DNA of 64,000 nucleotides from Gammaproteobacteria bacterium HGW-Gammaproteobacteria-11. GTDB taxonomy: Bacteria; Pseudomonadota; Gammaproteobacteria; Pseudomonadales; Pseudomonadaceae. The translations under genes and the position numbers were made by a program. Within the stretch, counting starts at the first letter, position 1; each line of letters begins with the position of its first letter. The stretch lies in assembly GCA_002840055.1 (NCBI GenBank), contig PGZJ01000001.1, forward strand, positions 1 through 64,000, given 5' to 3'. Positions 44,984 to 54,369 of the stretch are shown here, in pieces. The notes below the pieces were generated by a model, which made no database searches, was not told the origin of the DNA, and was given only the letters and a program-made list of their open reading frames with translations.

Positions 44984-45057
44984 GCGGGTGTAGCTCAATG
45001 GTAGAGCAGAAGCTTCCCAAGCTTACGACGAGGGTTCGATTCCCTTCACCCGCTCCA
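44984..45057 (+). tRNA. tRNA-Gly(CCC)
   Basis: GCGGGTGTAGCTCAATGGTAGAGCAGAAGCTTCCCAAGCTTACGACGAGGGTTCGATTCCCTTCACCCGCTCCA; anticodon loop TTCCCAA; encoded CCA. Confidence 0.96.
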
Positions 45058-45192
45058 TTTCTTAGTATCAACCACTCTCAGCAACTCTCACAAAGCCCCA
45101 AGAAGCATTGAATTAGAGGGATTTTCTTACCCTATTCATATTCAATGACTCTTACAGACATGCAGTCCAGCGCTTCACATCCTGTATGGTAG

Positions 45193-45230
45193 CTTGTATG
45201 GTATTAGTTCGATTAATCTCACCATACAAG
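45193..45230. promoter_or_regulatory. Perfect 10-bp inverted repeat just upstream of integrase start
   Basis: CTTGTATGGT (45193-45202) / ACCATACAAG (45221-45230); additional direct TGTATGGTA at 45183. Confidence 0.55.
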
Positions 45231-45233
45231 ACA

Positions 45234-46490
45234 ATGAAGAGAGCAGATATTAAACGCCGGCCTTTGGCCAACACCGTACTGGCATCCTTGGAACCTGAGC
45301 ACAGCGAGTACCGTGAGAAGTATGGTGTCGACAGGATCTATTTTGTCGTCAATACAAGTGGCAAAAAACGCTGGGAGCTAAGGTATAAAAAGCCATCATC
45401 CGGCAAATGGTCTTGGGCAGGTCTAGGCAGTTACCCCGATGTCAGCGCAAAAACTGCGCAGGTGAAAGCAGCAGAACTGCTGAAGGTACTCAGTGAGGGT
45501 ATCGACCCGGGAAGCTTAAAAAAAGACACTAATCCCCAAGGCATTCTGTTCAAGCAAGCGGCTGAGGAATGGTTTGACAAAAAAAAACGGGATGGACGTG
45601 CCACAAAAACACTCAAGGGCATACGCTTGGCATTAGACAATGACATGCTGCCTGCGCTGGGCGATACGCCGCTGAGAAAAATCTCAAGACAACAATGTGC
45701 CGAGCTCCAAAAAAAAATTGAAAACCGAGGTGCTCATAACACCTCGGAAAAAGTACGTGCGTGGCTCAAGCAGATTTTTGGAGAGGCCATTGGCAAGGGT
45801 TGGTGCGAGAACAACCCCGCCAGCAACCTCAGTGACATCGCAGAAGTTGCTCCTCGCGAAAAACAATACCCGCATTTATTAGAGCCTGATCTACCGGACT
45901 TTCTCAGAGCTCTTCAAAACGCGCCAAGTAAAATTCTTGCGCGCACAGCCGCATGGATGGTGATCAGAACGGCCTCTCGACCTGGTATGGTGCGCACAGC
46001 TGAGTGGAGTGAAATTAATCTTGAAAAGGGACTATGGGAGATACCTGAAGAGAAAATGAAAATGGGGCGCGCACATATCAACCCGCTACCTCGACAACTT
46101 ATTGCCGACCTGGAAGTTCTTCACCAAATAACCGGACGATCAAAATACCTCTTCCCAGGCGAAGGCTCGGTTAATCCAACCATGTCTGATGGAACCATTA
46201 ACAAGCTGTTTGAGTCAGCAGGTTACAAAGGACGCATGACTGGACATGGATCACGTCACACCTGCACAACCCTCCTATCAGAGCATAACTGGCCTGAAAA
46301 GTGGTCGAGCGCTCAACTTTCCCACTTCAAAAAGGGTATGGCCAAGGTTTATGACAAGGCCGCATTTCTGAAGCAAAGGGTAGATATGATGCAATGGTAT
46401 AGCGATTATCTTGACGCACTCCAGCGCGGTATTACTGATAAAGATGAAATCTCATTTGCTGCCAGAGTTCCCTTCATTAAAGACGAATAA
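45234..46490 (+). CDS. P4-type tyrosine integrase (genomic island)
   Basis: N-terminal arm-binding DUF4102-like region (KKRWELRYKKPSSGKWSWAGLGSYPDVSAKTAQVKA), RTASRPGMVRTAEW, TGHGSRHTCTTLL, catalytic Tyr region; adjacent to tRNA 3' end. Start trimmed from 45186. Confidence 0.93.
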   Translation: MKRADIKRRPLANTVLASLEPEHSEYREKYGVDRIYFVVNTSGKKRWELRYKKPSSGKWSWAGLGSYPDVSAKTAQVKAAELLKVLSEGIDPGSLKKDTNPQGILFKQAAEEWFDKKKRDGRATKTLKGIRLALDNDMLPALGDTPLRKISRQQCAELQKKIENRGAHNTSEKVRAWLKQIFGEAIGKGWCENNPASNLSDIAEVAPREKQYPHLLEPDLPDFLRALQNAPSKILARTAAWMVIRTASRPGMVRTAEWSEINLEKGLWEIPEEKMKMGRAHINPLPRQLIADLEVLHQITGRSKYLFPGEGSVNPTMSDGTINKLFESAGYKGRMTGHGSRHTCTTLLSEHNWPEKWSSAQLSHFKKGMAKVYDKAAFLKQRVDMMQWYSDYLDALQRGITDKDEISFAARVPFIKDE

Positions 46491-47260: not shown

Positions 47261-48310
47261 CTAGTTTTGACCGAACTCCGAGGCATACTGCGGCGGCTTC
47301 AAGAGCACAAAATGCTCAATCAGGCGCACCATCAGATTTTTCTGCTCGGGCAAACTCTCTGCCACCAGCAAGGCCAGCGCCACCAAGGTGTTGTCGTTAA
47401 TTAACTGCTCGACCGGCCGCGCCAGCAGGTGCTGGTTCAGTTGCAAATACCAAAGAAACAAAAATGAGCCACTGCGCTTGTTGCCATCGGCTAGCGGGTG
47501 ATTCTTGATTACGAAATACAGCAGATTTGCAGCACGGCTGGCCACATTAGGGTAGAACCACTCACCGGCAAAGCCCTGCTCAATGGTGGCAATGGCCGAG
47601 GCCAACCCCTCGCCCCGCAACTGACCGAAAAGTTCGGTCGCCTCGCCTTTGGCCATCAACGTGGCTTTCAGTTGCGCAATGGCTACCAGCACATCATCCA
47701 GCGCCAGTGCGCGCATATCGGTCTGAGTCGTGTTCTGCTCCTGCAGGCTTTGCTCGTCAAAGCCCTGCAGCAAGGTCCAGCTGCGGGCGTAGTCATCGAT
47801 CACCTGCAGCACCTCCCGGCCCTGATCATTGACCAGTTGCTGGTTGGCAAGGGTGCGCGTCAACAGGCTCACCGCCTGCTCGAACTCGATACCACGCTCT
47901 GCAAGACGGTGCTGGTTAAGGGTGTAGCCTTCGACCAGATGCTGCCTGAGCACGCCTGTTGCCCACTGACGGAACTGGGTCGCCCGCGCCGAACTCACCC
48001 GGTAACCCACCGAGATGATGGCATCGAGGTTGAAGTACTCGACCTGATACGTTTTGCCGTCAGCGGCAGTTGTTGCTTTTTTTGCAACAACTGCCTCGCG
48101 CTGCAACTCGTTGCTGTCGAAAATATTTTTCAGGTGCCGCGAGATCACCGACTTGTCCCGCGCAAACAGCTCGGTCAATTGCTGCAGACTCAGCCAGACG
48201 GTTTCGTGCTCCAGCGCGACCTGCAGATGCGCCTGGCCGTCGGCCGAGGTAAACAGCTTAATCCTCTGGCTCAAGGCTGGCGGGTACTGGACTTCCTTGC
48301 TTTTCGCCAT
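47261..48310 (-). CDS. RhuM-like protein with C-terminal Fic/Doc domain
   Basis: RhuM N-terminus (VWLSLQQLTELFARDKSVISRHLKNIF...YFNLDAIISVGYRVSSARATQFRQWAT) and Fic motif HPLADGNKRSGSFLFLWYL. Confidence 0.92.
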   Translation of the reverse strand: MAKSKEVQYPPALSQRIKLFTSADGQAHLQVALEHETVWLSLQQLTELFARDKSVISRHLKNIFDSNELQREAVVAKKATTAADGKTYQVEYFNLDAIISVGYRVSSARATQFRQWATGVLRQHLVEGYTLNQHRLAERGIEFEQAVSLLTRTLANQQLVNDQGREVLQVIDDYARSWTLLQGFDEQSLQEQNTTQTDMRALALDDVLVAIAQLKATLMAKGEATELFGQLRGEGLASAIATIEQGFAGEWFYPNVASRAANLLYFVIKNHPLADGNKRSGSFLFLWYLQLNQHLLARPVEQLINDNTLVALALLVAESLPEQKNLMVRLIEHFVLLKPPQYASEFGQN

Positions 48311-48745: not shown

Positions 48746-51700
48746 TCAATCCTCTTCCCAGCTCTCCAGTATCTCTTCCACCGTTTGACGTATGTCCCCT
48801 TCCAAATCATCCAGTAATCGAACCTTAACTAAGGGGCTCATTCGTCTGATGCCGTAACTTAAGCAAGCGAGAATTGTTGCCCTTAGCTCCGGATCGCTCG
48901 CTAAAGTTAGTTGCACCTCGTCTTCACTAGACTGGACATGCACACCAAAGAGTTGTATTGCCAGCGCTTCGCGGACTTTGATATCAGGATCAATTGCTAA
49001 TTTTCTTTGGACGTCCGGTGTAAGTGGACGCTCAACGCTAGATGTCTCAATCAATCTTAGTCTGACGCCCTTATCTGCATCATTTGCCAACAGTGCTTGT
49101 GCTTCAGAAGAAAGACGATCGTTCTCAGCCAAAGCCATGCGCACACCGCGGTCGCTATCTTGGGTCAACAAGACTTGGACGTCATCGCACAAACCATTGC
49201 CTAACCCGCCCTCGCATCCCTTAGCCAAAGCTCGTCGAACACCGATCATTCTATCCTTGGCAATTAAGCGTTGGACTGTCGCAGGAAGTCCCAACTGGCT
49301 AGCAAGCAGTTCACGGATGGACTGCTCAGCATCGTTAGCAAGAATCTCCTGCGTCTCAGGGAGTAGCGCACACTCACCTGTCAACAGACAGGTCCGTACA
49401 CCTTTGTCCGAGTCCTTTGCGAGTTGTGCCTGAATAACCTTACCTGTCCGCCCACGCGCTGCAAGTAAACAGCGAACTCTTACATCTCTATCCTTTGCTA
49501 ATTGCACCTGCATCGCTAGATCTAGCGATGGGTTGCTCAACAGAGCTACTCGGACATCAATGGATGTGTCGTGAAGAAATTGACGAAGAATAAGCTGATC
49601 GACATTCTCGTTAGCAGCTAGCACTTGCCTTACCTCAACCCTGCTCTCCTCAGATAACTTTTTCTGGATGGAGTTAGGCAAACTGGGGTTGCGTGCCAGT
49701 GCTTTCAACTGCGGTTCCAAATGCCCTTGGTAGATTTCAGTCATCAATGCTTCAGTGATACCAGGGTTTGAGGAGAGACTCTCAATAACTTCAGTTTTGC
49801 CGGCCTCATATAAGCCTTGGTATTGGGTTTCAGTTAGATAACTATTTGTAGCAAGCTCTGTCTGCACACCGAGGTCTGCGTCAACGATCAATTTGTCAAA
49901 CACTAGCCCAGGTAGCGTCTTATCATGAGCCAAGCAACGACGTACCCTAAAATCTCCTCCATCAGCGAGTCTGGCTTGAAGTTGCCCCTCAAGTTCCGGA
50001 TTTGACGCCAATTCGATCAGAATTTCTTCGATACCCTCTTCTAACAATTGCAACTGGATATGCGCATCACGAGTATTTCTTGCTAGAGCTTTCTTTACAT
50101 CAACCGCGTCTATAGCCAACCTTTCCTGAACTGCTCGCGGCAAATCTTGAACCGATGCCAGATGCTCACGAACGCATACTTCCTGATCGTTTAGGAGCTT
50201 TTCATAGATGTGCCCATCAAGACGATCGTTTCTTGCCAGCGCAGCGCGAACCTCAGAGCAAGAATCTCTTACCAGAAACTCCTGCATTTCAGCCTTGATA
50301 AAAGGGTTACCTGCCAAAGCAATACGCACAGATGCAGCCCCATGCTCACTCAGCTTCAGCTGCACCTCAGCAGGCTTAACATGAGAGCTGCCAGCCAGCT
50401 TTGTCTTTACTTCATCCACATCGTCGATCAAGTAATGCAGTGCAGCACTGGTAAGGCTTGGGTTCTCCGCAAGAAGACAACGCACTTCTGGGCTCGGGTC
50501 TTGAGCTAACCTGATCTGAGCAATGGCACTTAAGCTTTCGTTACCTGCCAGCGCTATGCGCACGTCAAGATCACATTCAACCAACTGCAGCTGGACTGAG
50601 TCAGGGAGAAGGGCAGCCCCCGAGCGTCGAGCCAATGCATCGAGAACTTCCAGCTCTGCACGTCTAACCAATGACAATTGTGCCGCTTCACTTAAATCGC
50701 AGCGCTTAGCGAGAGTTACTAATACATCGAGCGACGAATCCTTCGCAAACTCATCCTGCACCTCAGTTTCAAGATTATCGTTTCCGACCAAACTTTGCCG
50801 TACAGTCACATTCTCGTCGGCAACCAGAATAAGCTGAATAGCCTTTGCCAATGCGTTGTTACCCGCCAAAGCCCTGCGAACATTCACATCCGGAATACCT
50901 AGCAAGCGCCGTTGCAAGTCCTCGTTTTGCGTTCTTTCCGCCAATTGAGCAATTTGAACATCACGAATTTTCAGGCGATCGAACTGCGCTGCAATCAGAT
51001 CGTGGGGAGCATGGGCATGTAAACAGGCAATATGTAGCAACGTGCTGTCAAAGCCCGGCTGTCCCTCTTCAATATTGATCCGAAGGGTCAGTAAATCTGC
51101 TGAACAATTGGGGTTTTCATAGGCTGCAGCGCGAACGGTCTCATCAGTGTCAGAAACAAGCTTTTCCAGTAGATCTATCGGACAATCCTGATGTCGGGCG
51201 ATCCTAAGACGATTGATAGCGTTAGGACTATCCGCCATCTTGATCATATCCGCGACACTAAGACCGTCCTGTGCTGAGGCAGGTTTGAGTTTGAGTTTCT
51301 CGAAAAGCTCCTCATACTTTGCCACCTGGTCTCGCAGGGTCTCCCTCAATGACATTGTATGTTCAATCGCAATTTCGAGATCTTCGAATTTAAGCCCCCT
51401 GTTCTTCAAAAATGCGATTTCTCTAGCCTCATTGACCGCATTCTGGATATCAGCCCCCGCGTAGTCACGGCAAAGTCCGACCAGGCGGCTTCGCTGAGCG
51501 CTGGTTAACTCAAGCGTCTCGCTTCGGAGATGGATGTCTAGAATCGCACTGCGCTCGGTAGCGTTGGGGAAACCCACATAAAACACCTCATCGAACCGCC
51601 CTTTGCGTAACAACTCAGGTGGCAGCGCGGTGATGTTGTTAGCAGTAGCAATAACAAAAACCGCACCGCTTTTTTCTTGCATCCACGTTAGGAAGTAGCC

Positions 51701-52783
51701 GAATAGCCTCGACGAAACCTCCGAGCCGCTGCCACTATTCATTCCAACAAATGCCTTTTCCAGCTCGTCGATCCAGAGAATACAAGGGCTGATTGACTCG
51801 GCCATACTCAAGGCGCGACGCATATTGTGCTCGCTTTCGCCCACGTATTTTCCCAGCAGCGAACCGATATCCAAACGCAGCAAAGGGAGTTGGAATAAAC
51901 CTGCTGCGACCTTGGCGGTAAGCGACTTACCGCAGCCAGGCATCCCCGCAATAAGTACGCCTTTTGGCGCTTGCACTCGGGCTTCGCGGGCGTCATCGAG
52001 GCGACTAAAAACGTTGGCTCGGCGCTTAAGCCACTCCTTGAGATTTTCCAAGCCGCCGATGTCGGCATCACTCTCGCTGACCTTAAGCATTTCCAACACA
52101 CCACTCTTGGAAATGATCTGTTCCTTCTCACTCTGAATCAGTGCCAATGCTTGATCGTCAACCTGATCGTGATGCTGGCGTACCATCGCCAAAACCGAGC
52201 GAATTTGCTCCTCGTTGAGACCGCTGCATGCCGCAAGAAGTCGCTGACGTGTTCCCTTGGGTACATCCAAACCTAGCCGATCAGCATGACCGCTGAGTAA
52301 GCTGCTGATCTCGGTACCTTGGGGTAACGGCAAACGCAGAAGAGTGATTTGAGCCTCAATCTCAGGAGGGATCGACAACGTCTCGGAGACTAGTACCACT
52401 GCTGCTCTACCACGATGGTGACGTTGAATGCGGTTCAGCAACTGCTTCAATCGCGCGACCGCTAAAGGTTGGTTCTCCAGGGCACTGCGGGCGTCCTTGA
52501 TAACAAAAAGCTTGTTATCAAGGTCGTCATCCAATAACGACGGCAGACTGCCTGCAAGGTCCATTCTGGCTTCTTGGTTATCCCTGGGCTGCTTGTTGAC
52601 GAAGTCCACCCATCCATAACCAAGGTTCCACTCCTTGGGATAAAGTGATAGCTGGGTAGCTACATCCTGGAGCATGGCATCAACTCGGGCTTCCTCACCC
52701 GAATGAATGTAAAGCCCGGGATAGCCAGATACTAAATAGGATTCGATCTTCTTTTTCAGGTCACTCAAATTCATGCACGTCAC
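48746..52783 (-). CDS. AAA+ ATPase (Ycf46/FtsH-like core) with long C-terminal LRV-type repeat array
   Basis: GVLIAGMPGCGKSLTAKVAAG (Walker A), CILWIDELEKAF (Walker B), RKGRFDEVFYVGFP; then ~825 aa of ~24-aa repeats such as LVRDSCSEVRAALARNDRL, LAQDPSPEVRCLLAENPSL. Confidence 0.9.
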   Translation of the reverse strand: MTCMNLSDLKKKIESYLVSGYPGLYIHSGEEARVDAMLQDVATQLSLYPKEWNLGYGWVDFVNKQPRDNQEARMDLAGSLPSLLDDDLDNKLFVIKDARSALENQPLAVARLKQLLNRIQRHHRGRAAVVLVSETLSIPPEIEAQITLLRLPLPQGTEISSLLSGHADRLGLDVPKGTRQRLLAACSGLNEEQIRSVLAMVRQHHDQVDDQALALIQSEKEQIISKSGVLEMLKVSESDADIGGLENLKEWLKRRANVFSRLDDAREARVQAPKGVLIAGMPGCGKSLTAKVAAGLFQLPLLRLDIGSLLGKYVGESEHNMRRALSMAESISPCILWIDELEKAFVGMNSGSGSEVSSRLFGYFLTWMQEKSGAVFVIATANNITALPPELLRKGRFDEVFYVGFPNATERSAILDIHLRSETLELTSAQRSRLVGLCRDYAGADIQNAVNEAREIAFLKNRGLKFEDLEIAIEHTMSLRETLRDQVAKYEELFEKLKLKPASAQDGLSVADMIKMADSPNAINRLRIARHQDCPIDLLEKLVSDTDETVRAAAYENPNCSADLLTLRINIEEGQPGFDSTLLHIACLHAHAPHDLIAAQFDRLKIRDVQIAQLAERTQNEDLQRRLLGIPDVNVRRALAGNNALAKAIQLILVADENVTVRQSLVGNDNLETEVQDEFAKDSSLDVLVTLAKRCDLSEAAQLSLVRRAELEVLDALARRSGAALLPDSVQLQLVECDLDVRIALAGNESLSAIAQIRLAQDPSPEVRCLLAENPSLTSAALHYLIDDVDEVKTKLAGSSHVKPAEVQLKLSEHGAASVRIALAGNPFIKAEMQEFLVRDSCSEVRAALARNDRLDGHIYEKLLNDQEVCVREHLASVQDLPRAVQERLAIDAVDVKKALARNTRDAHIQLQLLEEGIEEILIELASNPELEGQLQARLADGGDFRVRRCLAHDKTLPGLVFDKLIVDADLGVQTELATNSYLTETQYQGLYEAGKTEVIESLSSNPGITEALMTEIYQGHLEPQLKALARNPSLPNSIQKKLSEESRVEVRQVLAANENVDQLILRQFLHDTSIDVRVALLSNPSLDLAMQVQLAKDRDVRVRCLLAARGRTGKVIQAQLAKDSDKGVRTCLLTGECALLPETQEILANDAEQSIRELLASQLGLPATVQRLIAKDRMIGVRRALAKGCEGGLGNGLCDDVQVLLTQDSDRGVRMALAENDRLSSEAQALLANDADKGVRLRLIETSSVERPLTPDVQRKLAIDPDIKVREALAIQLFGVHVQSSEDEVQLTLASDPELRATILACLSYGIRRMSPLVKVRLLDDLEGDIRQTVEEILESWEED

Positions 52784-54369
52784 CAGAAAGCCGAGATATT
52801 GGAGGCTATGTTACGCATGTCATTGCCTAGGGTCTCGACTGCCCGCCCCATCTCATCAAGCAGCGAGACTGCGACGCGAGTAGCCGTTTTCGCAACTTTC
52901 TTGCCAGCTTCGTAAACCACGTTGCCAATCTGTCCGCCTACAATACCTCCGGCCACCCCTCCAACGAAACCACCGACAGCAATACCTACCGGGCCAAACA
53001 CCGTGCCGATCGCCAAGCCTAGCGCAGCGCCTTTAGCTGCTCCAGCAATGGCCATAGTTGTTGTCACCGTAGTATTACCGATAGCGTCAATAGCTTCCTC
53101 ACCGCTCAGCTCTCCCTTACCAAACTTGTAGAGTACTTTCGCGTTTTGCAGCCCTACGCATGCAATATTGGTGATCAAACCTGCTGGCGTGTTTCGTAAA
53201 GCAGCACCGAACCAACCATTTTTTATAGCCACGACCAGTGCCCCCGACACTGCCACTTGAGCTCCAGTGTTGACGCTGGCACTCAGCGAGCTTTCGAAGA
53301 ACTCTTTCAGATCACAATTAACGCTTGGATTTTGCCGACCATTGAAGGAGTTCCAGCAGCGCCGTGCAAGAATCCGCGTCCCCTGCATGCCTACTGCGAT
53401 GCAGCTTCCTATCAACGCTTGCTTACCAATCTGCCGAGCGATGACCGAGCGATTTGTTTCGCTCCAATCATATTGTCGAGTTTCAGAATCCTGCTGGGCT
53501 TGCTCTTGTCGTTGCTTAGCCTCCTCTTTGGTAAGGGGCTGTGAGCTCACGCCATCTGCTTCAATAACTTCAGTACTACCAGCGATATCTTTACTTTGTC
53601 CCTCAGGCACTAGAGGCGTTTGGCCCTCGTAATCCCCTCGATTCAGTAATACGTTGGTTCTGTTGGCGTCGCTACCGTACTTCGACTGGTAGCTGGAAAC
53701 CACGTTACCGCTAGCGTCAACAATCTCAATATCAACAGAGTTTAAACCGGTCGACTTTACAACCCGGGCGCGATAGCCGCTACCCTTGCTGACAGCATCG
53801 ATATTGAAGCTGTCAACGTGGTGCTGCTCAGCGATAAAGCCATCAAGGTTGGGGCTGCGGCTGATACCTCCATTAAGGTTGGTGACCATGTCACGAGCAT
53901 TTTTCGTGGCATCAGCTAGTGCCTGATCGATTCGGCCTGCGTAATGGCCAACATGCACTGACCCAGAAATGGCGGCTTTCGCCTCAATTTCTCCCGCCAG
54001 CCAAGACGCTTTACTCCTGCCCTTATCAATATGCGTTTGCAACGACTCTCTGGACTCATTGAACGAAGCAGTAGTGGAAATCACCTGCTTGCTGGCGCTC
54101 AATAGATCTTCTTCGCTAGACCACAGGTGTGGGTATTTCCTGAACTCATCACTGAGCCACTGGTCCAGCGGTTGATCACCGCGCACGTTGCAAGAGTCAA
54201 CGAAGGTGGTTATTAATTCCGTCGTTTTATCGCCATTGCTTAACTCACCACCTAATAACTCAATTTTGAGAAATTCTGCCTGTTCCAAGCCAGCCTGCTC
54301 AAAATCGTTGTTGTTCTTGTGTTCGTCGGCCATGTTATTTTCTTTAAACGTCATACTACTGCCTCGCAC
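52780..54369 (-). CDS. Uncharacterised protein: D-x14-QxK nuclease-like region plus C-terminal glycine-zipper membrane segment
   Basis: LDGFIAEQHHVDSFNIDA...NSVDIEIVDASGNVVSSYQSKYG; AGAAKGAALGLAIGTVFGPVGIAVGGFVGGVAGGIVGGQIGN; stop overlaps next start by 4 nt. Start may be 54354 or 54333. Confidence 0.75.
   Translation of the reverse strand: MRGSSMTFKENNMADEHKNNNDFEQAGLEQAEFLKIELLGGELSNGDKTTELITTFVDSCNVRGDQPLDQWLSDEFRKYPHLWSSEEDLLSASKQVISTTASFNESRESLQTHIDKGRSKASWLAGEIEAKAAISGSVHVGHYAGRIDQALADATKNARDMVTNLNGGISRSPNLDGFIAEQHHVDSFNIDAVSKGSGYRARVVKSTGLNSVDIEIVDASGNVVSSYQSKYGSDANRTNVLLNRGDYEGQTPLVPEGQSKDIAGSTEVIEADGVSSQPLTKEEAKQRQEQAQQDSETRQYDWSETNRSVIARQIGKQALIGSCIAVGMQGTRILARRCWNSFNGRQNPSVNCDLKEFFESSLSASVNTGAQVAVSGALVVAIKNGWFGAALRNTPAGLITNIACVGLQNAKVLYKFGKGELSGEEAIDAIGNTTVTTTMAIAGAAKGAALGLAIGTVFGPVGIAVGGFVGGVAGGIVGGQIGNVVYEAGKKVAKTATRVAVSLLDEMGRAVETLGNDMRNIASNISAFW

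Follow-up and report, generated by a model that had tools for sequence, protein, structure and literature searches.

We identified in Gammaproteobacteria bacterium HGW-Gammaproteobacteria-11 two adjacent minus-strand genes that encode a p97-like AAA+ ATPase with a long repetitive C-terminal tail and a partner protein joining a PD-(D/E)xK-like nuclease domain to a glycine zipper. The pair lies within the first 64,000 nucleotides (nt) of contig PGZJ01000001.1 (assembly GCA_002840055.1), hereafter the window. We see about an even chance that it belongs to a mobile type of AAA+/effector immune cassette, here standing alone and with the sensor fused, that would act by abortive infection. The two genes are found together in several phyla, frequently along with a third gene, here called X, which the tail of the window ATPase appears to replace.

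Conserved pairing of the two genes

The partner was searched for in one genome per species using short conserved peptides. At least 41 loci were found in Pseudomonadota, Spirochaetota, Bacillota, and Thermodesulfobacteriota, a number that is a lower bound because the scan relied on such short sequences. A gene-neighborhood survey, which the initial annotation of the window had proposed as a check on conserved pairing, revealed in 39 of these loci, across phyla, a homologue of the AAA+ gene on the partner's strand, either adjacent to it or at most 5 kb away. The two exceptions are a locus at a contig end (L061) and one with a truncated partner (L048). Gene order varies, since the AAA+ gene mostly comes first in Bacillota, unlike in most Pseudomonadota, yet the two genes remain paired. 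Among 399 sampled Pseudomonadota genomes, no further one was found to contain the nuclease domain, which indicates that the cassette is rare and patchy. No relative was found in viral contigs, and a DNA-level search of E. coli genomes returned no match. One unannotated 4.6-kb "phage" record turned up, which we did not count as support. Related AAA+ genes on plasmids of Paenarthrobacter (L074, 4564-8257) and Planktothrix (L075, 4992-9168) are accompanied by DUF2997 plus 4Fe-4S or DUF1257 genes; here, members of this ATPase family have other partners.

Both window genes are present on the minus strand as initially described. The partner gene spans 52780..54369 (529 codons), based on the list of open reading frames (ORFs), the alignment, and the homologues in the 41 loci; the ATG at 54354 is its more likely start. 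The ORF of the AAA+ gene spans 48746-52783 (1345 codons) from a GTG start. This GTG, picked by the ORF caller, yields the 4-nt overlap with the partner stop reported at 52780-52783. The sequence GTGA is there, but it is probably not used as a start: in the three nearest relatives that share this layout (L024, L025, and L026), the AAA+ gene begins at an ATG exactly 5 nt past the partner stop, and the window has a matching ATG at 52774. From this conserved ATG, placed by homologue starts, the gene would span 48746..52774. A true ATGA overlap is used in L028, L029, and L054.

The AAA+ protein and its variable tail

The AAA+ core (residues 231-505, 51269..52093, minus strand like all features of the pair) is complete, as had been noted, and looks active. 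It matches Pfam AAA at 4.1e-29 over residues 276-404, presents the Walker A motif GMPGCGKS at residue 280, and is p97/CDC48-like (VCP-like ATPase, 1.2e-52 with phmmer). The region ahead of it (to residue 230, 52094..52774) is about as large as a degenerate first ATPase domain would be and contains two p97 stretches detected by phmmer, and no Walker motifs were found in these ~230 amino acids (aa). In the homologues from CoCoNuT operons, the N-terminal ATPase is described as inactive (Bell et al. 2024, PMC11090510).

The remaining 840 residues (506-1345, 48749..51268) form a repetitive tail. Autocorrelation peaks at a lag of 26 residues (mean BLOSUM62 score of +0.11 versus a maximum of -0.49 in 300 shuffles), and ~31 motif hits were obtained with the approximate consensus VRxALAxNxxLxxxVQxxLAxDxxxx. 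Pfam LRV_2 matched the tail at 9.9e-6 with 25.9 bits, just under the cut-off of 27. The ~31 hits agree with the initial count of roughly thirty repeats; the unit is of LRV type, but its period is 26 residues and not 24.

The tail is also the fastest-diverging part of the AAA+ protein. Between P. cedrina and P. pisciculturae, identity reaches 99.6% for the AAA domain and 99.3% for the nuclease versus 78% for the tail, and between the window and P. japonica it is 83% for the AAA domain versus 45% for the tail. The pairwise ratio of nonsynonymous to synonymous substitution rates (dN/dS) is 0.21 for the tail and 0.01 for the AAA+ domain, and dS is raised in some tail segments. Based on these values, the divergence of the tail is probably due to relaxed constraint and segment replacement and is not proven positive selection. 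The tail thus behaves like a variable recognition module, which agrees with the role it had been assigned. In Pseudomonas bharatica CSV86 the AAA+/LRV gene (L027, 11698-15845) consists of two overlapping ORFs and is therefore probably frameshifted.

A third gene probably exchanged for the tail

Most loci contain X, which combines a conserved head of ~75 aa (IKFNL..DG..VRNIEEL..HF.IE.L..Y.NGLL.RWLEVRG) with variable C-termini. The head has no Pfam match, and the C-termini include pentapeptide repeats, propeller-like/DUF5050 domains, and Lcl_C, among others. Using a hidden Markov model (HMM) of the head, we detected X in 28 of the 29 cassettes with a short AAA+ protein (ending near the core, ~500 aa) and in none of the 13 cassettes whose AAA+ protein carries a C-terminal extension of at least 200 aa (Fisher p ~5e-10, a value that ignores relatedness and is inflated by it). 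The homologous plasmid loci L065 and L066 were counted as one, and L030, whose AAA+ gene is cut by a contig end, was excluded. In the partner tree, the extensions fall into two clades, an LRV clade that includes the window and a CoCoNuT clade, each adjoining relatives that carry X, with support of 100/98 and 98/95 at the joining nodes; L035 is placed only weakly (84/59). This implies that the exchange between X and an extension happened twice.

We infer that X and the AAA+ extension do the same job. Since X is present in nearly all cassettes with a short AAA+ protein and absent from all extended ones, the LRV tail of the window is probably a built-in replacement for X, and most likely a sensor. 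Indeed, the common job is most likely recognition, because X ends in repeat domains that vary and no other part of the AAA+ protein changes as fast as the LRV tail. The initial annotation considered a single locus, where X is not visible. On a Calditerrivibrio plasmid (L072, 2883-6500), a right-handed beta-helix protein with a weak match to the X head (2.6e-4) precedes the AAA+ gene; it is possibly another type of sensor without a partner.

The partner protein

Three regions were delimited in the partner. The N-terminal helical domain (residues 40-162, 53884..54252) is an AlphaFold block whose predicted local distance difference test (pLDDT) scores are mostly 65-97, with ~42 near residues 131-140, and it is retained in a nuclease-less Microcystis homologue (L071; HMM match 23-152). 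The PD-(D/E)xK-like nuclease domain (residues 163-300, 53470..53883) contains GFIAEQHH, D213, and Q228-x-K230 and is defined from its model, Foldseek matches, and invariant residues. The glycine-zipper hydrophobic segment (residues 440-485, 52915..53052) is defined from the alignment and sub-threshold Pfam Gly-zipper matches. The D-x14-QxK motif of the initial annotation is exact and the glycine spacing that it noted in the C-terminal segment is real, and its view of the partner as a nuclease-like, glycine-zipper protein is supported in both parts: residues E181, D213, Q228, and K230 as well as G462, G466, G470, G474, and G478 are invariant in all 35 partner sequences, which come from several phyla and include those linked to CoCoNuTs.

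Modeled alone, the nuclease domain obtained a pLDDT of 86 and a core order of alpha-beta-beta-beta-alpha-beta. In this model the first helix carries E181, D213 lies at the second strand, and the third strand holds Q228-x-K230. On this core topology, the acid-acid-(D/E/Q)xK pattern occupies the positions expected of a PD-(D/E)xK active site. The list of PDB matches is rich in restriction-endonuclease folds (3dnx, EndoMS, DrdV, 9y1l, YaeQ, Can2, and 3ijm). Among viral models, the sole significant Foldseek match was part of a J-domain protein of Bodo saltans virus, a giant virus (BFVD A0A2H4UU33; E 1.1e-4, TM-score (template modeling) 0.65, 22% identity), and the weaker matches below it include annotated nucleases. 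The full-length partner model, in which helices dominate, gave no meaningful PDB matches, and the partner profile retrieved from PDB sequences only low-complexity or glycine-zipper-region matches. Single-sequence matches of the partner within the order were rejected as homology, being confined to residues 392-515 (glycine-zipper noise).

Two plasmid-borne cassettes, one from Exiguobacterium (L070, next to McrBC) and one from Microcystis (L071), have X and the AAA+ gene and encode partners (349 and 375 aa) in which the zipper region is kept and the nuclease domain is missing. The partner may therefore have the membrane part as its core, with the nuclease as a module.

Relationship to known systems

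The pair had initially been considered undescribed, which does not hold. Bell et al. (2024, eLife, PMC11090510) describe the same AAA+/glycine-zipper pair in Type III-A CoCoNuT operons: a SpoVK/CDC48-like AAA+ protein beside a glycine-zipper protein, as an extension of these operons. They suggest that the pair is able to stand alone, and they call the nuclease fold inactivated. Outside supplementary files and subscription papers, our literature search returned this work as the sole paper combining SpoVK and a glycine zipper.

Four CoCoNuT loci (L032, L033, L041, and L065) are homologous to the window pair, with ~38-43% identity for the AAA+ protein, ~43-49% for the partner, and the same gene order. 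They share the degenerate N-terminal ATPase, the PD-(D/E)xK-like domain, and the glycine zipper. Judging from their gene content (vWA, partner, AAA+, CARF, vWA or hypothetical, PP2C, kinase, and AAA-domain protein), plasmid loci of Klebsiella and Enterobacter match the system of Bell et al. In the CoCoNuT loci, the pair is flanked by two TerY-like vWA genes, a CARF nuclease, TerY-P, and CnuB/C. Among the annotated genes around the window pair, we found neither a TerY-like vWA gene with the TerY-P triad (PP2C, kinase) nor a CARF nuclease (Can1/Can2-like), both of which are present in L065. The only vWA gene near the window pair encodes a VIT-vWA protein ~23 kb away, and McrB-like and McrC-family genes, possible counterparts of CnuB/CnuC (McrBC-like with a coiled coil), are located a few genes upstream. 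The CoCoNuT AAA+ protein has a ~210-aa extension with a biotin-carrier-like barrel (Biotin_lipoyl, 4e-4 in L032, a relative of the Klebsiella/Enterobacter plasmid loci), whereas the window protein has the 840-aa LRV tail and no such barrel in a Pfam scan. Finally, CoCoNuT and window partners fall into separate supported clades of the partner tree. The window pair appears to represent a branch that stands alone, free of CoCoNuTs. As far as we checked, what appears new is how widespread the stand-alone cassette is, along with X, its repeated cis/trans swap with an extension, the partners that lack the nuclease, and the preservation of the catalytic motif.

Other systems share some of these properties. 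IetAS and sgiAT of SGI1 also pair a classical-clade AAA+ protein with a potentially toxic partner, but the partner in IetAS is a subtilisin protease, which the window partner is not. IetA was rejected as a family name (IetA models at most 74 bits; NCBIfam IteA 68 bits versus a curated 510). LeoB (PADLOC; Eleos-type dynamin system) matches the C-terminal segment of the partner at 2.9e-6 and was likewise rejected, since the match is limited to residues 447-526 in the glycine-zipper region and there is no GTPase. A Ycf46-like stand-alone AAA+ protein of the same genome (L068, 7828-9384, 518 aa) presents the layout of N-domain and AAA+ domain with 35% identity, but it lies in a housekeeping neighborhood (coq7, argC, and tyrS by sequence) without partner, X, or tail. 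HerA-DUF4297-type ATPase-nuclease defense complexes, in which a ring ATPase acts with a PD-(D/E)xK-like nuclease, are alike in working only: they belong to a different ATPase clade and have no glycine zipper and no variable sensor.

Genomic context

The pair is located on an island inserted at a tRNA-Gly(CCC) gene (44984..45057, plus strand), beside which lies a tyrosine integrase gene (45186..46490, plus strand). The last 26 bp of the tRNA gene (45032-45057 of contig C56) are repeated exactly, without a tRNA, at 117195-117220, which confirms the integrase-marked island reported initially and gives it a length of 72 kb. A third copy with two mismatches at 105427-105451 suggests that this ~72-kb island is composite. 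A guessed attachment (att) motif gave no match.

Upstream of the pair, the minus strand carries hsdR, a DUF4011 helicase, a 402-aa unknown, a McrC-family gene, a McrB-like gene, hsdS, and hsdM. The neighboring restriction-modification (R-M) and helicase genes noted initially are thus a Type I R-M system, McrBC-like genes, and the DUF4011 helicase, a 1606-aa protein that is PDC-S37/ProA-like (NCBIfam ProA, 1458 bits versus a cut-off of 1500). In the segment 54675-63914 of the window and in L067 3877-10967, the Type I R-M genes are all on one strand, with the McrB-like/McrC-family pair, the 402-aa unknown, and the helicase inserted between hsdS and hsdR. A RhuM-Fic fusion protein (PADLOC PDC-S23, 47261-48310) is encoded directly downstream of the AAA+/LRV gene. 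Across loci, up to two flanking genes per side were scanned, and in this qualitative survey 13 of the 139 genes encode WYL regulators. Other matches were three CARF-PDDEXK proteins, HsdR, HsdS, MzaE, a CBASS cyclase, a phospholipase, TIR-TM, and JukA. These data support a mobile pair associated with defense genes.

Discussion

We propose that the AAA+ protein would form a p97-like ring whose C-terminal LRV solenoid recognizes an infection cue, probably a phage protein. Recognition would license the ATP-driven remodeling of the partner, which would be inactive until then. The C-terminal glycine-zipper helices of the remodeled partner would enter the inner membrane, its PD-(D/E)xK-like domain would cut nucleic acid, and the cell would die or stop growing ahead of phage release. 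In the related cassettes, recognition would be ensured by the separate X, with its constant head docking and its variable C-terminal end sensing. Defense through abortive infection by this full mechanism seems to us roughly evenly balanced. The initial annotation had likewise proposed that the tail senses, the ATPase remodels, and the partner kills; pairing, mobility, association with defense genes, and the variable tail agree with this scheme, and sensing, remodeling, and killing remain conditional. Overall, its observations were partly confirmed and its interpretation is partly supported. It is slightly less probable than even that these cassettes constitute a distinct unnamed mobile immune family, in which a p97-like unfoldase with interchangeable sensors (X in trans or LRV in cis) arms a membrane-inserting nuclease and fusion occurred at least twice.

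Several observations weigh against this immune mechanism. The QxK of the partner, with Q in place of the usual acid, departs from the canonical (D/E)xK, and no PDB structure matched the nuclease domain at E <= 0.001 with Foldseek (best E of 0.046, 3dnx). The peak hydropathy of the glycine zipper (1.84) is moderate for a transmembrane segment, and this part of the partner model has low confidence. Positive selection on the tail was rejected, as pairwise dN/dS is below 1. Finally, the counts of flanking genes are qualitative.

The same Q would be expected if the nuclease-like domain were dead and only bound nucleic acid, the partner being a membrane-pore effector that kills through its glycine zipper. 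The inactivated fold of Bell et al. (2024) and the nuclease-less Exiguobacterium and Microcystis partners also speak for this possibility, which we nonetheless consider unlikely. The invariance of E181, D213, Q228, and K230 in 35 of 35 partners, CoCoNuT loci included, is better explained by an active nuclease, and this domain is in general better conserved than the rest of the partner. Moreover, QxK is found in active Mrr-type nucleases. The coupling of two genes on an integrative island could alternatively reflect a toxin-antitoxin-like addiction module, where the AAA+ protein restrains a toxic partner and loss of the island kills, with a logic like that of sgiAT, which joins a SpoVK/Ycf46/Vps4-type AAA+ protein to a subtilisin-like toxin. 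Simple addiction, however, needs neither a long fast-changing solenoid nor an X with variable ends, and WYL regulators and CARF/TerY-P couplings point to signaling; we find this scenario rather improbable.

The pair lies among Type I R-M genes, close to McrBC-like ones, and has a nuclease-like domain fused to a membrane segment; both would also suit a system that works like restriction, degrading DNA at the membrane as it enters while the cell survives. There is little reason to favor it, since the flanking genes scanned at other loci include no conserved methylase or modification partner and the recognition parts are repeat proteins rather than DNA-binding domains. It is very improbable that the partner is a secreted interbacterial toxin similar to type VI glycine-zipper nuclease effectors with the AAA+ protein as loading chaperone: the association of glycine zipper and nuclease resembles Ntox15 effectors as listed for PMC10470768, but the families listed for the scanned flanking genes include no recurrent secretion or immunity gene, and the AAA+ gene almost always accompanies the partner in cis.

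Our results turn a passing remark on CoCoNuT operons into an independent and widespread cassette and question the published view of a dead nuclease. If the immune mechanism that we favor holds, the ATPase and the killer would remain constant while the sensor is swapped, and specificity could be tested by exchanging tails or X. These cassettes would then be a bacterial counterpart of receptor-type immunity, with a recognizer that is interchangeable between two forms, a protein of its own or a fused repeat tail.

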